A stretch of DNA of 64,000 bases, taken from NCBI RefSeq assembly GCF_005849285.1, contig NZ_CP040517.1:2362501-2426500 (forward strand), read 5' to 3'. Shown here one piece after another: positions 22,777-63,908 of this stretch. The DNA comes from Luteithermobacter gelatinilyticus. Lineage in GTDB: Bacteria > Pseudomonadota > Alphaproteobacteria > Sphingomonadales > Emcibacteraceae. The first letter of the stretch is position 1. Each line of letters starts with the position of its first letter. Below the pieces are notes generated by a model. That model worked only from the letters and a program-made list of their open reading frames with translations, made no database searches and had not been told where the DNA came from. Both the position numbers and the translations under genes were made by a program.

Positions 22777-22838
22777 TAAAAGCTGACAGGGCCTTTGGGG
22801 ATTTTCCGGATACTTTCGAATTTTGGGTATGCAGATTT

Positions 22839-22874
22839 AGAATGAATTGAGTCAACCTCTTCACAATTCACTCT
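22839..22874. repeat. TAGAGTG repeat family, short copy (subtype 1)
   Basis: 36 bases: AGAATGAATTG arm, loop AGTCAACCTCTTCA, CAATTCACTCT arm. On the minus strand it provides the last two codons and the TGA stop of the pabB-pabC gene. Confidence 0.85.
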
Positions 22875-24733
22875 AGACGTCCTCTGATCAGCCCCCGAAC
22901 CGAATTGCCCACATAAAGTTTGTCTGCGGCACGCAAGTCTTCCGGGAAAAGGCGTTTCTCCCGGGCCCGCCCCTCGTCAAGGAGGCGCTGACGCAGAATG
23001 CCGCCCAAAAGCCCGGCTTCGAGCGGCGGGGTATATAACCGTCCGTTTTTTTCCACAAACAGATTGGTGAAACTGCCCTCGGTCAGTTCTCCCCGTTCAT
23101 TGGTGAACAGCACCTCGAAACAGCCGCTTTCCCGGCGGGCCTGCTGCAAAGCATCATCGTAAAAAGACCGTCTGGTGGTCTTGTGATAAAGATAGGGGGA
23201 ACGACTGTCCACCGCCTCGGGCCAGAGCCGGAAGCGCCTTTCTTCCCCTTCCGGCGACGGGTTCAGGCGGGTTGATGTCACTGACGTCATGCCGTCCCGT
23301 GACAAGAGCAGGCGCACTCGCCACGATCCAGTCGGATCCAGCCGGGCGCAATGCCGGATCAGATCATCGCGGATCCGGACCAGATCACAGGCAAAATCAA
23401 AATAGATGGCGGAGTCTTTCAGTCGCGCCAGATGAGCGTCCAGATGCTCCAGTCCCCCCGCTCCCGTCCACCGCATGGTTTCAATTAGGGCAAACTCCTC
23501 TTGCCGTCGGGTCAGGAACGCGGCCTTAAGCAGACATTCTTCATATTCTTCCTGCGCGGCGGAATCCGCAACGATGCCGCTGCCGATTCCCATTTGGCCC
23601 CCGCCGGTCCGGTTCAGGGTGACTGTGCGGATCGGAACATTGAAACACATCTCCCCATCGGGCGTCAGATACCCAATAGCCCCGGTATAAATTCCTCGCG
23701 GCACGCCTTCCAGTTCCGCAATGATTTCCATGGCGCGGATTTTGGGGGCGCCGGTAACCGAACCACAGGGGAACATGGCCCGCAGAATATCGGTATTTTT
23801 CACTCCCGCCGCCACTTCCGCTTCGATACTGGAGGTCATCTGAAACAGGGTGGCATATTTTTCCACATCATACAGGCTGTGGACCTTCACCGATCCCGGC
23901 CGGGCCAGTTTTGACAGGTCATTGCGCAGCAGATCCACAATCATCAGGTTTTCGGCCCGGTTCTTTTCATCCTCTCGCAACCGTGCGGCAAGGTTCTGGT
24001 CCTCCGCGACCGTGCGGCCCCGGCGCAGGGTGCCCTTCATGGGACGGGTCAGCAAACGATTGCCGTCCCGGCGCAAAAACAGTTCCGGACTGAGGGAAAG
24101 AATATCCTGGTCCGCTGTCTGGATATAGGCCCCATAGGAGACCCTCTGCGCCCGACGCAGCGCGGCATAAAGAGCCGAACTATCTCCCTCAAAGTCGAAT
24201 TCCGCCCGCAGCGTATAATTCACCTGATAAATGTCCCCGGCCCTGAGATATTCATGAATCCGGGCAATGTCTGAAAGATAAGCCGCCTTGGCCTTTGACA
24301 GACGAATATCGCCGATCACCGCCCGCCCCCGTTCTTCCCGCTCACGCCAGTAGCGTTCAGCCTCATCCGGCAAATAACGGCGGCGTCCGTCAAAAACCCC
24401 GAAACACAGGTAGGGCACCTCCACCCGTGGCGGCAGATGAACTCTCAGGCGTTCTTCAAGGGTAAGTCCGCTCTCATAACTGATCCAGCCGGCCAGGTGA
24501 TAACCTGCGGCAAGGGCCTCTTCCATTGCCGTAAACCCCTGCGTCAGCTCCTCCGGATGGTTGACCGTAATCACGTCAAGCGGGGACTCGTATAAATATG
24601 AAACACCCCCTGTTTCATTGCCATACCCATGCCGTCCATGTCCATGTTGGCGACCGGCCGTCCCTTGGGCAAGGCTGTCATCCAGAAACAAGCGAAGATG
24701 TTGTTTTTGTCCTGCACCGTTCTTAACCGGCAT
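22868..24733 (-). CDS. pabB: Aminodeoxychorismate synthase component I fused to aminodeoxychorismate lyase
   Basis: 621 residues, two enzymes of p-aminobenzoate (folate) synthesis in one chain. Residues about 55-400 are the chorismate-binding PabB part (GDIYQVNYTLRAEF, SLSPELFLRRDG, TRPMKGTLRRG, FPCGSVTGAPKIRAMEII, GIGSGIVADS). About 415-621 are a PabC-like PLP enzyme (ALIETMRWTGAGGLEHLDAH, Lys in LYHKTTRRSFYD, TEGSFTNLFVEKNG, LLGGILRQRLL). Such PabB-PabC fusions are known in bacteria. The final LE* is encoded inside a repeat copy. The glutamine amidotransferase PabA is not nearby. Confidence 0.92.
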   Translation of the reverse strand: MPVKNGAGQKQHLRLFLDDSLAQGTAGRQHGHGRHGYGNETGGVSYLYESPLDVITVNHPEELTQGFTAMEEALAAGYHLAGWISYESGLTLEERLRVHLPPRVEVPYLCFGVFDGRRRYLPDEAERYWREREERGRAVIGDIRLSKAKAAYLSDIARIHEYLRAGDIYQVNYTLRAEFDFEGDSSALYAALRRAQRVSYGAYIQTADQDILSLSPELFLRRDGNRLLTRPMKGTLRRGRTVAEDQNLAARLREDEKNRAENLMIVDLLRNDLSKLARPGSVKVHSLYDVEKYATLFQMTSSIEAEVAAGVKNTDILRAMFPCGSVTGAPKIRAMEIIAELEGVPRGIYTGAIGYLTPDGEMCFNVPIRTVTLNRTGGGQMGIGSGIVADSAAQEEYEECLLKAAFLTRRQEEFALIETMRWTGAGGLEHLDAHLARLKDSAIYFDFACDLVRIRDDLIRHCARLDPTGSWRVRLLLSRDGMTSVTSTRLNPSPEGEERRFRLWPEAVDSRSPYLYHKTTRRSFYDDALQQARRESGCFEVLFTNERGELTEGSFTNLFVEKNGRLYTPPLEAGLLGGILRQRLLDEGRAREKRLFPEDLRAADKLYVGNSVRGLIRGRLE

Positions 24734-26839: not shown

Positions 26840-27649
26840 GTGAGTTTTTTACAGATTGTTGTCCTGGCCATCGTTCAGGGGATTACCGAATTCCTGCCCA
26901 TCAGTTCTTCGGCCCATCTGATTCTTGTGCCCCGGCTGACGGATTGGCCCGATCAGGGGGTGATGATGGATGTGGGGGTGCATCTGGGCACATTGGGGGC
27001 TGTCATGCTGTATTTCCGCACGGATGTCGGGCGGTTGTTCAATGCCTTCTGGCAGATGCTGACTCTGAAACAGGATTATGACCGTATGGAACGGCGGCTG
27101 TTTCTGGCGCTGATCCTGTCCACTATTCCGATCATTATCTTTGGCGGGCTGGCTGCGGCATTTGACCTGAATGATTTGTGGCGGACGCTGGAAGTGATCG
27201 GCTGGACCAGCATTCTGTTCGGCCTGTTGCTGTATGTTCTGGACATGCGTGCGCCTGTCACAAAAAAAATCACCGATATGCGTTACGGGCACGCCCTGAT
27301 CATGGGGTTTGCCCAGGTGCTGTCCATCATTCCGGGCACCAGCCGCGCCGGGATTACCATGACCGCCGCCCGGGGGATGGGGTTCAGCCGGACGGAAGCG
27401 GCACGGTTTTCCATGCTGATGTCGATTCCCACCATTATCGCCGCCGGTAGTATGGAAGGGGTAAAGCTGGCGCAATCCGGTGACTTTGTGCTGGGGCTGG
27501 ATATCCTGCTGGGGGCGGGGCTGTCTTTCCTGGCGGCCCTTGTCGCCATCGCCGCGCTGATGAAGTGGCTAGAGCGGGCCAGCATGACACCCTTTGTGGT
27601 CTATCGGGTCATGCTCGGCGCCGCCTTGCTGGTCTGGGCCTATGCCTAG
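26840..27649 (+). CDS. uppP: Undecaprenyl-diphosphate phosphatase
   Basis: 269 residues, GTG start with GGGGA a few bases upstream. Polytopic BacA/UppP family: QGITEFLPISSSAHLIL at the N-terminus and PGTSRAGITMTAARGMG in the second repeat are the two active-site motifs. Recycles undecaprenyl pyrophosphate for peptidoglycan and surface polysaccharides; overproduction gives bacitracin resistance. Its TAG stop (27647-27649) is formed at the edge of a palindromic repeat copy. Confidence 0.95.
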   Translation: MSFLQIVVLAIVQGITEFLPISSSAHLILVPRLTDWPDQGVMMDVGVHLGTLGAVMLYFRTDVGRLFNAFWQMLTLKQDYDRMERRLFLALILSTIPIIIFGGLAAAFDLNDLWRTLEVIGWTSILFGLLLYVLDMRAPVTKKITDMRYGHALIMGFAQVLSIIPGTSRAGITMTAARGMGFSRTEAARFSMLMSIPTIIAAGSMEGVKLAQSGDFVLGLDILLGAGLSFLAALVAIAALMKWLERASMTPFVVYRVMLGAALLVWAYA

Positions 27650-27682
27650 AGTGAATGGGTCAACCTATTCACAATTCACTCT
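27648..27682. repeat. TAGAGTG repeat family, short copy (subtype 1)
   Basis: 35 bases: AGAGTGAAT, then GGGTCAACCTATTCA, then CAATTCACTCT. The TAG stop of uppP is shared with the left end, and the right end is followed by TAA wording (CTCTAATAC), as if a TAA stop codon had been split by the insertion. Confidence 0.88.
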
Positions 27683-27737
27683 AATACGCGATCGGTAAAC
27701 CGAGAAAGCAAAGAGAAACGATATGTCAGGAAAGAAA

Positions 27738-30852: not shown

Positions 30853-31308
30853 CTTTCATTTAAGTTAATTTTTCGTTAACGCCTTCAGTATAAGCAAATC
30901 ACAGGCCAGAACGGATTACCCCTTTATTTTCAATAGCTTTCCGAAAAACCAGTCTTTTCAGCTTTGTTCAGCCGCTCCCAACTGTAACATTTTTTAACAT
31001 TTTTTATAGAAGATTGTGCCAAATCGGGATTTTCAGAGCGCCATTTTTCCGACTGCCCCGCCCCTTGTCCGTAGATCCTCGCCCCTTTGCAAAAGATCCT
31101 CGCTGGTTTCCGCTCCCGGTGCTGAAGTTAGAGTGGCCCGAGCTTGAAGTTAGACTAGAGTGAATTGTGAATAGGTCGCCGCAATTCGCTCTGGAATCCT
31201 GGTACTCTGGGGTCCAGATCATCAGGAAACTATGATATACTGCGCAAAAGCTGGCCCGGTTGCGTATCCGGCATCTGAAATCTGGATTCGTACCGTGGAA
31301 CCCTTCGG
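30853..31308. other. Gene-free stretch containing one repeat copy
   Basis: 456 bases between the Sel1-like gene and the GST gene. It holds a TAGAGTG family copy (31157-31192) and a short GAAGTTAGA direct repeat just before it (about 31123 and 31145). The rest shows no gene, RNA or clear promoter. Confidence 0.6.
31157..31192. repeat. TAGAGTG repeat family, short copy with diverged loop
   Basis: 36 bases: AGAGTGAATTG, loop TGAATAGGTCGCCG, and CAATTCGCTCT (one mismatch). Unlike most copies it is more than 100 bases from the nearest gene end. Confidence 0.8.
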
Positions 31309-42854: not shown

Positions 42855-42990
42855 CGGCTTGTGGTTTCCTTCTGGGATCCTTTCGGATGATGTTTTTATC
42901 ATGCAATCGCAAATTACCGCGGAAACTACCCACCCGTCCCACACTCGTCAAGAAATGAATCGGCTTTTAACGGTTAGAGGCTGGGCCGAT

Positions 42991-43271
42991 AGAGTGAATT
43001 GTGAAGAGGTTGACCCATTCTGCCGGTCAGGTCTGGTTCAGGAGCCAGGGGTTTGGCGCAGACCATACTGGCGGTACGGCCCAGCCAAATCCCGCAGGAA
43101 CTGGGCCAGACCGGCCCGGCCCTTCGGGGTGGCGGCTTGGGGCCGCTCACCTTGTCAGACTCCTGGGTCAGACGCTTGGCCCGATGCCCCGCATCGCCCG
43201 GCGCCGTCTTCCGCGTGAGGCGGGCCACAATCCGCCAACAGAATTGGGCCAACCTCTTCACAATTCACTCT
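42991..43271. mobile_element. Long TAGAGTG element (281 bp), MITE-like, copy 1
   Basis: Ends are 22-base perfect inverted repeats beginning AGAGTGAATTG (left, 42991-43012; right, 43250-43271), with similarity continuing inward for about 10 more bases. The core (about 43023-43239) is very GC-rich with several internal hairpins and no transposase-sized frame. A second copy, in opposite orientation, is at 63605-63872. Each end matches one short family member, so the element looks like two short units facing each other around a core. Flanked by T on the left and AG on the right, compatible with a TA target. Confidence 0.85.
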
Positions 43272-43346
43272 AGTCCTCCTTTTGGGTCATTCCCGATAGC
43301 CTGCAGCATCGCGAGCCCGTCACACGGATGTGGCGATCCATGAATC

Positions 43347-51211: not shown

Positions 51212-52099
51212 ATGCTGAATTTTGATAAAAATTTTTCTCCGGAATACGGCGTGGTGACTCGTCTCAGCCCGCTGGTGCGGCGAATCGTGGCGCATAACCC
51301 CTCGCCTTTTACCTTTATGGGTACCGGCACCTATATCGTGGGACAGGGAACGGTTGCGGTTATTGATCCGGGGCCGGCCATGCCGAGCCATCTTCATGCC
51401 CTTGAACAGGCACTGGAAGGCGAGGTTGTCAGTCACATTCTGATCACGCACAATCATATGGACCATTCCCCGGCCGCCCGGCCGTTCCAAAAAGTGGTTG
51501 GCGGCGGAATTTATGCCTTCGACCCGTCACAACAAACCTACAGCGACAACCATACGGAAGAAGGTCTTGATACATCCTTCCACCCGGATCATCTGCTACG
51601 GGACGGGGACGTGATCAAGGGCAACGGCTGGACCCTTGAAGTACTGCATACGCCGGGGCACCTGTCCAACCATCTGTGTTTTGCGCTCAGGGAAGAAAAG
51701 GCCCTGTTTTCCGGCGACCATGTCATGGGCTGGTCCACCACCGTGATCTCCCCGCCGGACGGCCATATGGGCGCCTATTTGCAAAGTCTGGAACGCCTGT
51801 TGGCGCGGGATGATGAAATCTATTACCCGACCCACGGCAACCCGATTCCCAACCCGCAACACTATGTGCGGGGACTGATCGCCCACCGCCAACATCGGGA
51901 AGAACAGATCTTGCAGGTCATCCGAACCGGCGCTGCCACCATCCCGGAAATGGTGGACATCATCTATGCCGACGTGCCGAGTTATCTGCATCCGGCAGCG
52001 GCACGTTCCGTGCTTGCACATCTCATTCACATGGTGGAAGACGGTCGTCTGGTGACCTCGGGCCACACCGATGAACAAGCGGTCTACCGCCTGCCCTAG
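51212..52099 (+). CDS. Metallo-beta-lactamase-fold hydrolase (LACTB2-like)
   Basis: 295 residues. Zinc-binding motif ILITHNHMDHSPAAR (HxHxDH-type with N at one place: THNHMDH), LHTPGHLSNHLCFALREEKA, LFSGDHVMGWSTTVISPPDG, and a C-terminal winged-helix-like part (VDIIYADVPSYLHPAAARSV) as in LACTB2, a mitochondrial single-strand RNA endonuclease. A hydrolase acting on RNA or thioesters is possible. Its TAG stop is formed by a truncated repeat copy. Divergent from megL. Confidence 0.85.
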   Translation: MLNFDKNFSPEYGVVTRLSPLVRRIVAHNPSPFTFMGTGTYIVGQGTVAVIDPGPAMPSHLHALEQALEGEVVSHILITHNHMDHSPAARPFQKVVGGGIYAFDPSQQTYSDNHTEEGLDTSFHPDHLLRDGDVIKGNGWTLEVLHTPGHLSNHLCFALREEKALFSGDHVMGWSTTVISPPDGHMGAYLQSLERLLARDDEIYYPTHGNPIPNPQHYVRGLIAHRQHREEQILQVIRTGAATIPEMVDIIYADVPSYLHPAAARSVLAHLIHMVEDGRLVTSGHTDEQAVYRLP

Positions 52100-52119
52100 A
52101 GTGAATTGAGCCAACCTAG
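52098..52119. repeat. TAGAGTG repeat family, right-truncated copy
   Basis: AGAGTGAATTG then AGCCAACCTA, after which the expected TTCACAATTCACTCT is missing and a unique sequence with an SOS box begins. The TAG of the hydrolase gene's stop is shared with its left edge. Confidence 0.75.
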
Positions 52120-55570: not shown

Positions 55571-56721
55571 GGCAGCGGGGTTCCGCGCCGGGTTCTGTAA
55601 GCCTGATAACGATCCACAAGCCAGCCGGAGAAACGCCACAATCCCCAAGTGCCCAACATCGACACATAGCCGTCCACCGCATAATGCCAGCCCAGATGCA
55701 CCGACCCGATCTGAATGATGATCAGATAGGCCAGCATCACATAACCCAGCGGCCGGTTAAAAGCCCGACTTGAAAGAAACAGCAGCATGGCAAAGGCCAC
55801 ATGCATGCTGGGCATGGCGGTAATGCCGCTGCCCAGCCCCAATTCGCCGTCCGTATAATAGTCCCAGAGCAGTTTCTGGTATTCAAGCGCCGAAAGACCC
55901 ATCTTTCCGTCTGCCGTGCCAATGGCGGCGGCGATTTCCTGAAGCCGGGCCATCAGCGGGGAAAAAACATCCGGCCCGTCCACAATATTGCCGTAAAAAC
56001 AGGGTCCAGCCGCAGACAGTGTAATGGCCATCAACGATCCCAGAACGGACCAGGACAGAAAATAGGTCAGCAAATACTGATGATGGATCTTCCCCAAACG
56101 CCTGTGATGAACAATCATCCACAGGGTATGAAACATCAGAAACAGAAACCACAACCGGTAAAAGAAATCCAGAACCCTGGTCGACGTCACATCCCCGAAC
56201 AAGGCATGCGTGATCTGCCATGGATGAACCCCGAAATGCAAAAACCGATCCGCCTGCATGAAAAATTCGTCAAGATAAAAAGGGTTTATCGCCGGCAGCA
56301 GGGTCTTGACGCTGCTGAACACCGACATAAAGAAGGAAATCATCACAAAAGGAATGAAAATGCGCACCAGCGCCGACGGATGCACCCCATATATATAAAG
56401 GTCCCGCAGCGCCCTACGGGAAAACGCATACCGGCCGTGGCGAAGGACATAACTTGCCAATTTCACGAACAATACAAATCCTAGCGAAAGCAAAAAGGGC
56501 AGTTTGTAAATTTCATAACTGACCAGATCGTTCACCCCATAGGCTGCCAACAGGATATTGACGCCCAGCACATAGGCCAGGAAAACGCCGGTCATTGGCA
56601 TATAGCTCGCCAGCACTGCCGTGAGCCGTTCCGCCTGAGCAAATCCAGATTCTCTTCCGGATTTTTTCCCGGAGTCTGCCCCGACTTTTGTGCCGGACAT
56701 TGTCAACTCAGCTTGCGACAT
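55552..56721 (-). CDS. PAP2-superfamily membrane phosphatase (AUR1-like), second copy
   Basis: 389 residues from ATG 56721, overlapping the end of the upstream paralogue by 14 bases. Six or more membrane segments. Acid-phosphatase motifs GITAMPSMHVAFAML and IGSVHLGWHYAVDGYVSMLG give the two catalytic His and the Asp. The arrangement recalls the PAP2_3 (Aur1/Ipt1) group of phospholipid or inositolphospho-transferases rather than plain PgpB. The substrate is unknown. Part of a tandem pair with the next gene. Confidence 0.8.
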   Translation of the reverse strand: MSQAELTMSGTKVGADSGKKSGRESGFAQAERLTAVLASYMPMTGVFLAYVLGVNILLAAYGVNDLVSYEIYKLPFLLSLGFVLFVKLASYVLRHGRYAFSRRALRDLYIYGVHPSALVRIFIPFVMISFFMSVFSSVKTLLPAINPFYLDEFFMQADRFLHFGVHPWQITHALFGDVTSTRVLDFFYRLWFLFLMFHTLWMIVHHRRLGKIHHQYLLTYFLSWSVLGSLMAITLSAAGPCFYGNIVDGPDVFSPLMARLQEIAAAIGTADGKMGLSALEYQKLLWDYYTDGELGLGSGITAMPSMHVAFAMLLFLSSRAFNRPLGYVMLAYLIIIQIGSVHLGWHYAVDGYVSMLGTWGLWRFSGWLVDRYQAYRTRRGTPLPQDSLR

Positions 56722-57811
56722 GGCCTGTTCCCCGTCCGCGGCACTGGACCAGCCAGCCGGACACCCGCCACAACCCCCAGGTGCCCAACATCGACACATA
56801 GCCGTCCACCGCATAATGCCAGCCCAGATGCACCGACCCGATCTGAATGATGATCAGGAAGGCGAAGAAAAAATATCCCACATAGCGGCTGACCTCGCGG
56901 CCGGACAGGTAAAGCAGCATGGCAACGGAAACATGCATGCTGGGCATGGCGGAAATGCCGCTGCCCGCGCCGGTCGCATTATCCTGGTAATAGGCCAGCA
57001 GGTCTTTCTGGATGTCCAGAGCATAAAGCTGAAACAGGCCGCCGGTAGCCTGGCGCTGGTCATAAAAGTCCTGCAGGCGGGCCATCAATGGCGCAAACAC
57101 ATCCGGCCCGTCCACAAATACACCATAATAACAGGGCCCCGCCGAAGACAACATCACCGCCAGCACCGAGCCCAGCACAAACCAGCACAACAAAAACGCC
57201 AGTAAGAACTGGGCCCGTTTTGCCCCGAAAGAGACATTCACCACCTGCCATAACACATAGGAGAACATCAGGAAAAACCAGAGATTATAGAAAAAATTGA
57301 TTACCCCGCTCATCAATGCGGTGCCAAATAGGGCATGGGTGATTTTCCAGGGATCAACGCCAAAATGGAGCAGGCGGTCCAGTTTCATGAAAACTTCATC
57401 CAGATAAAAAGGCTGGAGCGCCGGAATGACACTTTTCAGGGAGGAAAAAATGGAAATATAGCCGGGGAGAAACAGGAACGGCACGGCAAAGGCCAGAAGA
57501 TAATCCGCATTCAGCCAACCGGCCCGGAAATCGGAAATGATGCGCCCGGCTCCTTTTTCCGAACGGTCATAGGACAGATACCGCAACAAATAGGTGGTGG
57601 TTTTGATAAAGACAATCGCCGCCAGACTGATATAAATAATCTCCACATACAGGCTGATGGTAAAATGTGCCGCCAGCCCCTGCCACCACATCACGGTCCA
57701 AATGCTTGCCGCCTGAAGAAGAAACACCGTCAGCAACACCATATGCCGATACAGGTTTTCCCGATCCAGTGCCATATGGCGGTTTAATATGTTCAAAACG
57801 GCTTCGCTCAT
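56708..57811 (-). CDS. PAP2-superfamily membrane phosphatase (AUR1-like), first copy
   Basis: 367 residues with the same order of motifs as its neighbour: GISAMPSMHVSVAMLLYLSG and IGSVHLGWHYAVDGYVSMLG. PFYLDEVFMKLDRLLHFGVD, near the middle, is also shared (PFYLDEFFMQADRFLHFGVH in the other). The N-termini are unrelated. About 85 bases near the 3' end are almost identical in DNA between the two copies, more alike than the rest. It leads the two-gene operon. A role in lipid headgroup transfer or polyprenyl-phosphate recycling is possible. Confidence 0.8.
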   Translation of the reverse strand: MSEAVLNILNRHMALDRENLYRHMVLLTVFLLQAASIWTVMWWQGLAAHFTISLYVEIIYISLAAIVFIKTTTYLLRYLSYDRSEKGAGRIISDFRAGWLNADYLLAFAVPFLFLPGYISIFSSLKSVIPALQPFYLDEVFMKLDRLLHFGVDPWKITHALFGTALMSGVINFFYNLWFFLMFSYVLWQVVNVSFGAKRAQFLLAFLLCWFVLGSVLAVMLSSAGPCYYGVFVDGPDVFAPLMARLQDFYDQRQATGGLFQLYALDIQKDLLAYYQDNATGAGSGISAMPSMHVSVAMLLYLSGREVSRYVGYFFFAFLIIIQIGSVHLGWHYAVDGYVSMLGTWGLWRVSGWLVQCRGRGTGHVAS

Positions 57812-57949
57812 TTTCCCTGCCCTCGAAATTCCTGTTCAAGGCTATTCCGAGGAAGTTAAAAAAAAGCAAATAAGTCTCCACTCCCTCCCCGAAAAAGCGG
57901 TAGCCTCAAACCACTTTTTCGGTGTATACAACCGCTTCGCCCCCATATT

Positions 57950-57985
57950 AGAATGAATTGAGCCAACCTATTCACAATTCACTCT
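57950..57985. repeat. TAGAGTG repeat family, short copy (subtype 1)
   Basis: 36 bases: AGAATGAATTG, AGCCAACCTATTCA, CAATTCACTCT. Lies in the intergenic region upstream of the PAP2 operon. Confidence 0.85.
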
Positions 57986-58012
57986 AGAGACACTCTCATC
58001 ACGGTTCACTCC
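57986..58012. repeat. TAGAGTG repeat family, decayed copy adjoining the previous one
   Basis: AGAGACACTCTCATCACGG then TTCACTCC resembles the right half of a subtype 2 copy (compare 63889-63908: ATCTCATCACGATTCACTCT). It abuts the intact copy with no gap. Confidence 0.55.
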
Positions 58013-62751: not shown

Positions 62752-63606
62752 ATGCCACGTCACAACAAACTTCGGCTCAGTTATTGCGCGGAGCAGGTTC
62801 GCCGACAGGATCACGATCGGTTCCTGACCGTACTATTTGCTCCCCAGAACCGGCGGGAGGCATTATTCGCCCTGTACGCCTTTAATCAGGAGCTGGCCAG
62901 AATCCGGGAAACTGTGTCCGAACCGATGCTCGGGGAAATCCGCCTGCAATGGTGGTACGAGGCACTCAGGGACATCTATGCCGGTCAGATCCGCCATCAC
63001 GAGGTAGTCCAGGCTTTGGCCCAGGCCATCCGGGATCATGACCTGCCCCGGGAGGCGTTCGAGCAACTCATCGAGGCCCGCCGGCAAGATCTGTATGATG
63101 AAACGCTGGCAGATCTGGACAGTTTGCGGGACTATCTGAGGAAAACACCCGGCACCCTCGCCGCCCTTGCCGCCCGGATCCTTCAGGACAGTGACTCCCG
63201 GCTTCAGGCGCGCGCCGTGGAAATGGGGGAACTTTGGGGGTTGGTCGGCATTATGCGTGCCGTGCCCTATCATCTGTCCCTCAACAAACTACTGTTGCCC
63301 GAAACGATGATGAAAAAATACGGCCTGACCAAAACCGGCCTCGCAAACGCCCAAAATCAGGACAACCTGCAACGGCTCATTGCCGAGCTGTGCGGAACGG
63401 CCGAAGACCAACTGGCTGCCTTGCGCCGCCACAGGAAAACCATCCCTGCCCGGGCGCATTCGCTGTTTCTTCTGGCGTCCCTGAGCCAAAGTTATCTGAA
63501 ATCCCTGCGCAAGGCCGGGCATAATCCCTTTGCCCTTGCCGAACGCGCAGACGCCCTGCCCCGACAATTCCGCCTAATCCGGGACGGCCTATTCCGCCGG
63601 TTCTAG
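62752..63606 (+). CDS. Squalene/phytoene synthase-fold protein, NDUFAF6-like
   Basis: 284 residues. Isoprenoid-synthase-like helices: YCAEQVRRQDHDRFLTVLFA, LYAFNQELARIRETVSEPML, RLQWWYEALRDIYAG, LWGLVGIMRAVPYHLSLN. The two DxxxD metal motifs of true squalene and phytoene synthases are not preserved, and the sequence resembles NDUFAF6, a complex I assembly factor of mitochondria. Its role here would be respiratory complex assembly rather than carotenoid synthesis (inference). TAG stop at 63604-63606 is formed at the edge of the long repeat element. Confidence 0.82.
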   Translation: MPRHNKLRLSYCAEQVRRQDHDRFLTVLFAPQNRREALFALYAFNQELARIRETVSEPMLGEIRLQWWYEALRDIYAGQIRHHEVVQALAQAIRDHDLPREAFEQLIEARRQDLYDETLADLDSLRDYLRKTPGTLAALAARILQDSDSRLQARAVEMGELWGLVGIMRAVPYHLSLNKLLLPETMMKKYGLTKTGLANAQNQDNLQRLIAELCGTAEDQLAALRRHRKTIPARAHSLFLLASLSQSYLKSLRKAGHNPFALAERADALPRQFRLIRDGLFRRF

Positions 63607-63872
63607 AGTGAATTGTGAAGAGGTTGGCTCAATTCTGTTGGCGGATTGTGGCCCGCCTCACGCGGAAGACGGCGCCGGGCGATGCGGGGCATCGGGCCAG
63701 GCGTCTGACAACGTGAGCGGCCCCAAGCCACTAACCCGAAGGGCCGGGCCGGTCTGGCCCAGTTCCTGCGGGGTTTGGCCGGGTCGTACCGCCAGTATGG
63801 CCCGCGCCAAATCCCTAGCTCCTGAACCAGACCTGACCGGCAGAATGGGTCAACCTATTCAAAATTCACTCT
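63605..63872. mobile_element. Long TAGAGTG element (268 bp), MITE-like, copy 2 (inverted relative to copy 1)
   Basis: Reverse-complement relative of the element at 42991-43271. Its left end matches copy 1's right end, and its inner end (AAAATTCACTCT) has one change in the terminal repeat. The 13-base length difference is a deletion between two GTCAGAC direct repeats present in copy 1. The GC-rich core is otherwise closely similar by eye. Inserted exactly at the stop codon of the NDUFAF6-like gene, and followed without a gap by a short copy. Confidence 0.85.
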
Positions 63873-63908
63873 AGAGTGAATTGAATCGATCTCATCACGA
63901 TTCACTCT
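63873..63908. repeat. TAGAGTG repeat family, short copy (subtype 2) abutting the long element
   Basis: 36 bases: AGAGTGAATTG, then AATCGATCTCATCA, then CGATTCACTCT. On the minus strand it carries the TGA stop of the partial gene at the right edge of the window. Confidence 0.85.

Follow-up and report, generated by a model that had tools for sequence, protein, structure and literature searches.

A TA-flanked repeat family with a resident IS630 partner in Luteithermobacter gelatinilyticus: a probable MITE with unusually short, abundant derivatives

Several small repeats and transposons that use TA as their insertion site are described in those parts of the published accounts that are drawn on here. 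The RUP element of S. pneumoniae is presented as a non-coding repeat of about 110 copies with TA as target, for which IS630-Spn1 has been proposed as the mover in trans (PMC2229807, PMC3049150), and the Correia or NEMIS elements of Neisseria as TA-flanked MITEs with forms of about 155 bp and about 107 bp (PMC2229807). The BOX repeat of S. pneumoniae supplies the stop codon of 36 coding sequences, dnaJ among them, and the same account reports no strong evidence that these genes are truncated (PMC3049150). The internal eliminated sequences of Paramecium are described as TA-bounded remnants of Tc1/mariner transposons, shortened by deletion to a minimum of 26 bp (PMC3464196). ISY100, an IS630-family element of Synechocystis, moves by cut-and-paste, inserts at TA with duplication of this dinucleotide and is bound over about 24 bp of its end (PMC2170065).

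The window analysed here, a stretch of 64,000 nucleotides from a genome of 3,145,891 bases in one contig, contains members of a repeat family. The family is placed among the IS630-type MITEs, as a new one in which an abundant class of units is unusually short. Very probably the long form is an IS630-type MITE with an IS partner in the same genome, the short units are its derivatives by internal deletion, and copies have persisted in stop codons through a restored TAG. The first-pass annotation had placed a 281-bp element at 42991-43271 and had noted that its outer 30 or so bases match a family of short units; the coordinates are correct, the element is flanked by TA and the match of the outer bases is confirmed. 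The features of the window are listed below; with the TA counted as target duplication, the element bounds of the first long copy become 42992-43270.

22838-22875, minus strand: L-type short unit with flanking TA.
27647-27683, minus strand: R1-type short unit with the GACCCATTCACTC junction and flanking TA.
31156-31192, plus strand: diverged short unit.
42990-43272 including TA on both sides, plus strand: probable long MITE, copy 1 (element 42991-43271, 281 bp).
42991-43022, plus strand: right-type terminal repeat of copy 1, AGAGTGAATTGTGAAGAGGTTGACCCATTCTG.
43023-43238, no strand: GC-rich core of copy 1, the same core in 26/26 full copies.
43239-43271, minus strand: left-type terminal repeat of copy 1; the minus strand reads AGAGTGAATTGTGAAGAGGTTGGCCCAATTCTG.
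52097-52117, plus strand: truncated short unit.
57949-57986, minus strand: L-type short unit with flanking TA.
62752-63606, plus strand: ORF of 284 aa, whose stop TAG (63604-63606) consists of the flanking TA and the first G of long copy 2.
63604-63873 including TA on both sides, minus strand: probable long MITE, copy 2 (element 63605-63872, 268 bp).
63872-63908, no strand: short palindromic unit of the GATGAG subfamily, adjoining long copy 2 through a common TA.

A search of the genome with the 281-bp element returned 26 full-length copies of 267-294 bp each, together with partial copies and cross-matches of one end with the other. The mean pairwise identity of the 26 copies is 95.2% (range 90.6-99.6%), and a 13-base unit repeated in the core, GCCTGGGTCAGAC, is the main source of the differences in length. 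Copy 2 (row L021) lies in the reverse orientation, as had been stated, but it is 90% identical to copy 1 over the whole length and the term 'near-identical' used for it is too strong. In most long copies both ends start AGAGTGAATTGTGnAnAGGTTG and continue with GCTCAATTCTGTTGG (left type) or ACCCATTCTGCCGG (right type). The ends of copy 1 read TAGAGTGAATTGTGAAGAGGTTGACCCATTC/TG and, reversed, TAGAGTGAATTGTGAAGAGGTTGGCCCAATTC/TG, where the short units go on ...ACTCTA instead. Both long ends hold a full IS end of about 21 bases, and their inner parts are ATTCTG(T/C)(T/C)GG (ATTCTGYYGG). The presence of ATTCTGYYGG at both ends shows a single longer terminal repeat and not eroded arms of short units; the earlier description of the long ends as short units with an eroded far arm is not supported. 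Intermediate internal deletions in which both ends are kept (141, 175 and 203 bp) were also found, and one locus of 161 bp (L098) is a palindromic rearrangement built of the long form's right half.

No transposase is carried by the element, as the annotation had it: the three ORFs through the core gave no Pfam match at E 0.01, and in an Rfam search of L001 and L010 the long element was unmatched up to E 0.1. It is multi-copy, short, transposase-free and bounded by terminal inverted repeats, as expected of a MITE. In the predicted fold the two ends form a terminal stem that encloses two large stem-loops, with folding z values of -8.41 and -8.45, and the arms of one long copy (L010) measure 28 nt and are 93% complementary. 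The consensus fold reaches -130 kcal/mol with a covariation term of just -0.83, and double changes are seen in 4/102 pairs, 2 of them in the terminal stem. An RNA function for the core was considered and is disfavoured by this near absence of covariation. The two arms of the same long copy show 24 mismatches versus a mean of 35.7 for shuffled pairs (p 0.0002, a value that ignores the kinship of the copies); for the short units the corresponding figures are 74 and 73.6 (p 0.68), with no sign of arm homogenisation. In L013 base changes absent from every other long arm occur in both arms of the copy, and L007 has changes in both arms that are also present in one arm of L021. These paired changes suggest arm-to-arm copying through the hairpin.

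A DDE_3 (PF13358) profile search of the genome yielded two loci (E 6.6e-37), with an exact copy of the MITE end 529 bases upstream of each match. Identity between the loci is 98.8% across a stretch of 1,070 bases, outside which they diverge, and the IS they contain measures 1,054 bp between TAs and is TA-bounded in 2/2 copies. A tRNA gene (L093:38-111; Rfam) lies beside one of them. The IS ends, GAGTGAATTGTGAAAAGGTTGG (after TA) and GAGTCTTTTGTTAATAGGTTTA, form imperfect 22-base inverted repeats. The left one, TA-GAGTGAATTGTGAAnAGGTTG, is the same as the left end of the long element and, compared across about 21 bases, departs from most MITE ends at just 1-2 of the variable positions; the right one is less like the MITE ends and agrees with the IS left end at 15/22 positions. 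The transposase is encoded by two overlapping ORFs that meet at a run of eight A. Its DDE_3 domain is strong, its N-terminal helix-turn-helix match is weak and under Pfam's cut-off, and phmmer found the Sleeping Beauty transposase at 2.1e-5 and Mos1 only at 0.096 and above. A Tc1/mariner-type DDE_3 transposase, TA duplication and terminal inverted repeats place the element in the IS630 family. The transposase-carrying relative with the same ends that the first-pass annotation had proposed to look for is present in the form of this two-copy element, with the same left end, and the long element therefore has ends that match an IS630 element of its own genome. Since the core ORFs lack a Pfam match and a transposase-bearing relative has the same left end, the resident IS630 transposase most likely moves the long element in trans; this is the natural reading, and mobilisation in trans is also what the annotation had called for. 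The long element would be non-autonomous and inserted at TA (consensus YTAR), with two IS630 left ends that face inward and, between them, a GC-rich core that is non-coding and folds strongly.

Relatives of the transposase were matched in 12/60 genomes, own included. Eighty related loci, mostly labelled Alphaproteobacteria, were kept and 32 of them examined; 25/32 have inverted ends that begin with GAG or GAC next to a TA and lie 1,043-1,050 bp apart, as given by a best-pair search run without shuffled control, in which 7/32 loci yielded nothing convincing. In a second search of this kind, likewise without shuffled control, two of four outside transposase loci gave no convincing ends, and one element measured 979 bp. 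The nearest outside relative of the transposase is 81% identical, and its ends differ (13 and 12 of 22 positions). Each end of the MITE is thus the left end of the resident IS, which occurs twice in the element.

Throughout the genome a 13-mer of the end occurs 391 times (198 + 193) at up to 1 mismatch, versus 1 for the reversed control, and a 20-mer taken from the end has, with up to 3 mismatches allowed, 10 matches in the window (ends of long copies counted) versus 0.00 expected. The left border of the long copies is TA in 26/26, preceded by C (21), T (4) or A (1), and the right border in 25/26, followed by G (16), A (6) or T (3). Among 100 short units analysed, out of 113 main-type matches, a left TA is present in 88 (preceding base C 51, T 34, A 3) and a right TA in 95 (next base G 55, A 36, C 2, T 2). 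These flanking bases indicate a target that is mostly YTAR, symmetric and identical for long and short units, and both show the TA duplication that marks a MITE insertion. IS630 prefers CTAG as target. Nine of the 26 long copies adjoin another family end across one common TA.

Two more families of small TA-bounded palindromes were seen at 15 places (L288-L302, G000), often adjacent: one of about 75 bp, TA-GTGTGGT...ACCACAC-TA, and one of about 90 bp, TA-GAGTCAAATAATTAAC...GAGTCAGAAGAC-TA. At 7 or 8 of these places the TA after the 90-bp palindrome is followed directly by a MITE-family end. At L032, L059 and L346 (near position 808), partnerless ends stop at ATTCTG and give way to TA and unique DNA; these are perhaps one-ended insertions or a further deletion class.

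The main short unit (L1) is TA-GAGTGAATTGTGAATAGGTTGGCTCAATTCACTC-TA, with 113 genome matches at up to 3 mismatches versus 0 for the control. It consists of the long form's left end through CAATTC, joined to the terminal bases that follow CAATTC in the opposite end. In the R1 (4 copies) and R2 (7 copies) units it is the long right end that is joined, at ATTC and at the next ATTC, respectively, and rarer classes were seen by eye. In each short unit one full end is joined to a tip of 3-16 bases of the other, and the stems are A+T-rich hairpins. The junctions sit on small repeats (CAATTC, ATTC) common to both long ends, which points to a direction from long to short, the opposite of the order that the annotation had assumed. 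CAATTC or ATTC is present as a direct repeat, once in the inward portion of one end and once in the outer portion of the other; a deletion between the two occurrences would drop the core and leave a complete end joined to the other's tip, and at least three junction types would have arisen separately. L2, the mirror class of R2 with the same 4-base repeat, has 0 genome matches (0 versus 7, two-sided binomial p 0.016). Over 29 positions the short units differ from the consensus at a mean of 1.52 positions and the long left ends at 0.46; with this roughly threefold divergence, the present short units are older on average. The variant GGTTC is found in 6/100 short units and in 0/26 long left ends. 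The absence of L2 and the existence of common variants restricted to short units mean that not every short unit is an independent collapse of today's long copies. Ends of the same kind also form a GATGAG subfamily, noted in the window (17642, 59065 and 63872) and at L354-L368; it includes TA-flanked units of 25 bp that combine one full end with just CTC of the other. Such 25-bp units, TA-GAGTGAATTGTGATGAGATTGACTC-TA, occupy nine separate loci, with TA on both sides in eight; GATGAG replaces GAATAG in 6/9, and L366, another of the nine, is a member of the main family.

Inspection of the neighbouring genes revealed that TA together with the element's first G restores an in-frame TAG at TAA/TAG insertion sites. 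Coding ORFs that run into short units meet the element's TAG in frame in 23/28 cases versus 1/3 expected (p 1.5e-7), and those that run into long copies in 8/9. The remaining small units (7 R2 and nine of 25 bp) contributed one in-frame and one out-of-frame case, and the four R1 units (L108-L111) were left out of this test. For all sets pooled, the border TAG is in frame in 32/39 versus one third expected (p 5e-10). The TA of a stop codon is occupied in 23/100 short units; among non-interior (non-coding) YTAR sites, drawn from regions in which some family elements also lie, the figure is 23/610 (odds ratio 7.6, p 1.4e-9). Beyond the far TA the next base is A or G in 22/23 stop-codon short units, so the empty site would have been TAA or TAG. 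Of the 23 proteins concerned, 21 were written out (C-terminal 233 codons at most) and ten were searched, with NCBIfam matches for seven and none for three. The best profile matches end at 556/556 (EttA), 373/374 (DnaJ), 401/402 (thiolase, acetyl-CoA acetyltransferase), 399/410 (cyclopropane fatty acid synthase), 248/250 (crotonase), 495/505 (SpoVR) and 450/454 (NhaC); only that of DnaJ passes the curated whole-protein cut-off, because the queries are fragments. Judged from these profiles, the C-termini of the stop-codon proteins look complete and not truncated. At L013 both convergent neighbour genes end inside one long element.

Called gene sides within 300 bp of short units are 3' sides in 83/103 versus 97/224 at intergenic YTAR sites (odds ratio 5.4), the null being 428 such sites from 264 kb (the window and ten evenly spaced 20-kb stretches), regions that themselves hold some family elements. 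Genes were called with a crude codon-usage caller (coding fraction 0.64); as it misses genes, only the side-wise and frame tests are relied on. Neighbours are convergent for 46/85 short units with both sides called (28/48 with a re-trained caller); end matches in the ten unbiased stretches, which include one IS and several pairs of ends of a single element, were called convergent in 3/24, without that excess. The statement that no element lies inside a gene (0/126) was discarded, since the element's all-frame stops split any ORF that it enters. The persisting copies lie mostly at gene 3' ends, many of them exactly in TAA/TAG stop codons, and it is proposed that the latter persist because TA and the element's leading G together rebuild TAG, so that the encoded protein stays the same. 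The bias can be due to survival of harmless insertions or to insertion aimed at gene ends. Elsewhere in the window (55616-57211) there are two direct repeats, one of 219 nt (83%) and one of 143 nt (73%), at a spacing of 1,132 bases, perhaps a duplicated gene.

In the first-pass annotation the long copies looked like two short units that face each other around a GC-rich core, and it was suggested that short units can mobilise what lies between them; two facing short units would then have captured the core and would now move as one unit. The long ends do belong to the family of the short units, which outnumber the long copies (113 main-type matches versus 26 full copies) and are the more diverged. 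However, the alignment of long copies that the annotation itself had proposed gives one common core in 26/26, the full IS end and ATTCTGYYGG stand at both long ends where the short units turn to ACTCT, and the short junctions fall on repeats common to the two long ends. The annotation had named a single-copy core or a commoner long form as evidence against its own reading; in fact the core occurs in many copies, and long elements are less common than short ones. In the examined part of the genome 39 distinct pairs of inward-facing ends lie 60-3000 bp apart. Of these, 32 (120-300 bp) are long copies and their deletions, with one 217-bp pair in L360 counted among them by its size, three (about 304-309 bp) are a short unit beside a long copy, and four (702-1,887 bp) are single neighbour pairs, none of which recurs. 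A composite transposon was rejected on the basis of flanking units without inner arm, a core common to 26/26 copies and no recurring other cargo in the examined part of the genome, and capture of the core by two short units is very improbable. REP and BIME sequences have a RAYT (Y1 transposase) partner and GC-rich REP hairpins and cause no TA duplication; an identity with them was discarded, the element being TA-flanked with IS630-type ends. It is also unlikely, if less so than the capture of a core, that a host function in transcription termination or mRNA end protection keeps the repeats at gene 3' ends. The excess of 3' sides around short units and the strong folding of the long element would fit such a role, but covariation is nearly nil, the stems of the short units are A+T-rich hairpins, these units drift from their consensus, the element has no Rfam match, and counter-selection of insertions into genes and promoters accounts for the placement just as well.

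The short units can be read in two ways. Each of them may be the scar of a long copy that collapsed in place, through slippage at the hairpin or because gap repair was interrupted once the element had been excised, and this has close to an even chance of being right. The commonest class has the longest junction repeat (6 bases, 113 units; 4 bases, 4 and 7 units), partial deletions and the palindromic rearrangement L098 are present, and the short units are older than the long copies; the missing L2 class and the variants specific to short units do not fit. The IS630 transposase may, on the other hand, move units of 25-40 bp, with one full site and a bare tip, in trans, a reading that is credible although somewhat on the doubtful side. 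It would account for the uneven classes (113 units in one, and L2 empty beside its mirror R2), for common variants such as GGTTC, for TA/YTAR flanks like those of the long copies and for the 25-bp units at separate loci. Against it, the ISY100 transposase protects about 24 bp of an end (PMC2170065), and two sites of this size are too big for units of 25-34 bp; an extinct long lineage could have left the common variants. On this reading, which is less likely than not, a bacterial IS630 transposase could move an element that has one complete end and a few bases of the other, the short units would rank among the smallest mobile DNA units known, and the YTAR target and leading G would allow them to settle in stop codons at no cost.

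The relatives searched were 59 genomes (60 with the own one), none of the same genus, and no strong match to the long element was found in the 59. Two weak outside matches were obtained. One (L121, G005:C16:17279-17398), from a genome of the same family, aligns with 114 query bases at 70%, within the core, and is a possible distant relative of it; the second covers 25 bases. The end pattern occurs in 2/385 genomes of the class, 254 times in the own genome and once in one other. No match was seen in the plasmid collection or the viral contigs.

With the family read as an IS630-type MITE and its internal-deletion derivatives, a large set of repeats (391 ends in 3.1 Mb) would be tied to one resident transposase and a clear order given, from IS to long MITE to collapsed short unit. 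The question of the smallest part of a Tc1/mariner-type transposon still able to move is thereby sharpened. A mobile element could also spread without breaking genes, with the TA of TAA/TAG as landing site and TAG restored, and such landings are seen in conserved genes, namely those of EttA, DnaJ, acetyl-CoA acetyltransferase and cyclopropane fatty acid synthase.

Compared with the systems described above, and as far as the cited accounts describe them, the long MITE resembles RUP in being non-coding, in its TA target and in ends that resemble a resident IS630 element; by description, RUP forms one class of 107 bp, whereas here forms of 267-294 bp stand beside far commoner ones of 25-40 bp. 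The Correia/NEMIS elements likewise have longer and shorter forms set apart by an internal stretch, but their short form drops just about 50 internal bases, while the present short unit is one end plus a tip. ISY100 shares the insertion at TA and its duplication and is itself an autonomous model element. The Paramecium sequences are, like the present short units, TA-bounded and shortened remnants of Tc1/mariner type; they are eukaryotic, unique in copy and removed with a domesticated piggyBac transposase, whereas the short units are bacterial repeats with no known programmed removal. BOX is the precedent for stop codons supplied by a repeat, although it is modular, with ISSpn2 as proposed mover, and in the present family the element enters at the stop codon's own TA. 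The kind of element is thus known from RUP and Correia, and what is unusual is the size of the short units, their design of one end plus tip and their placement in stop codons.
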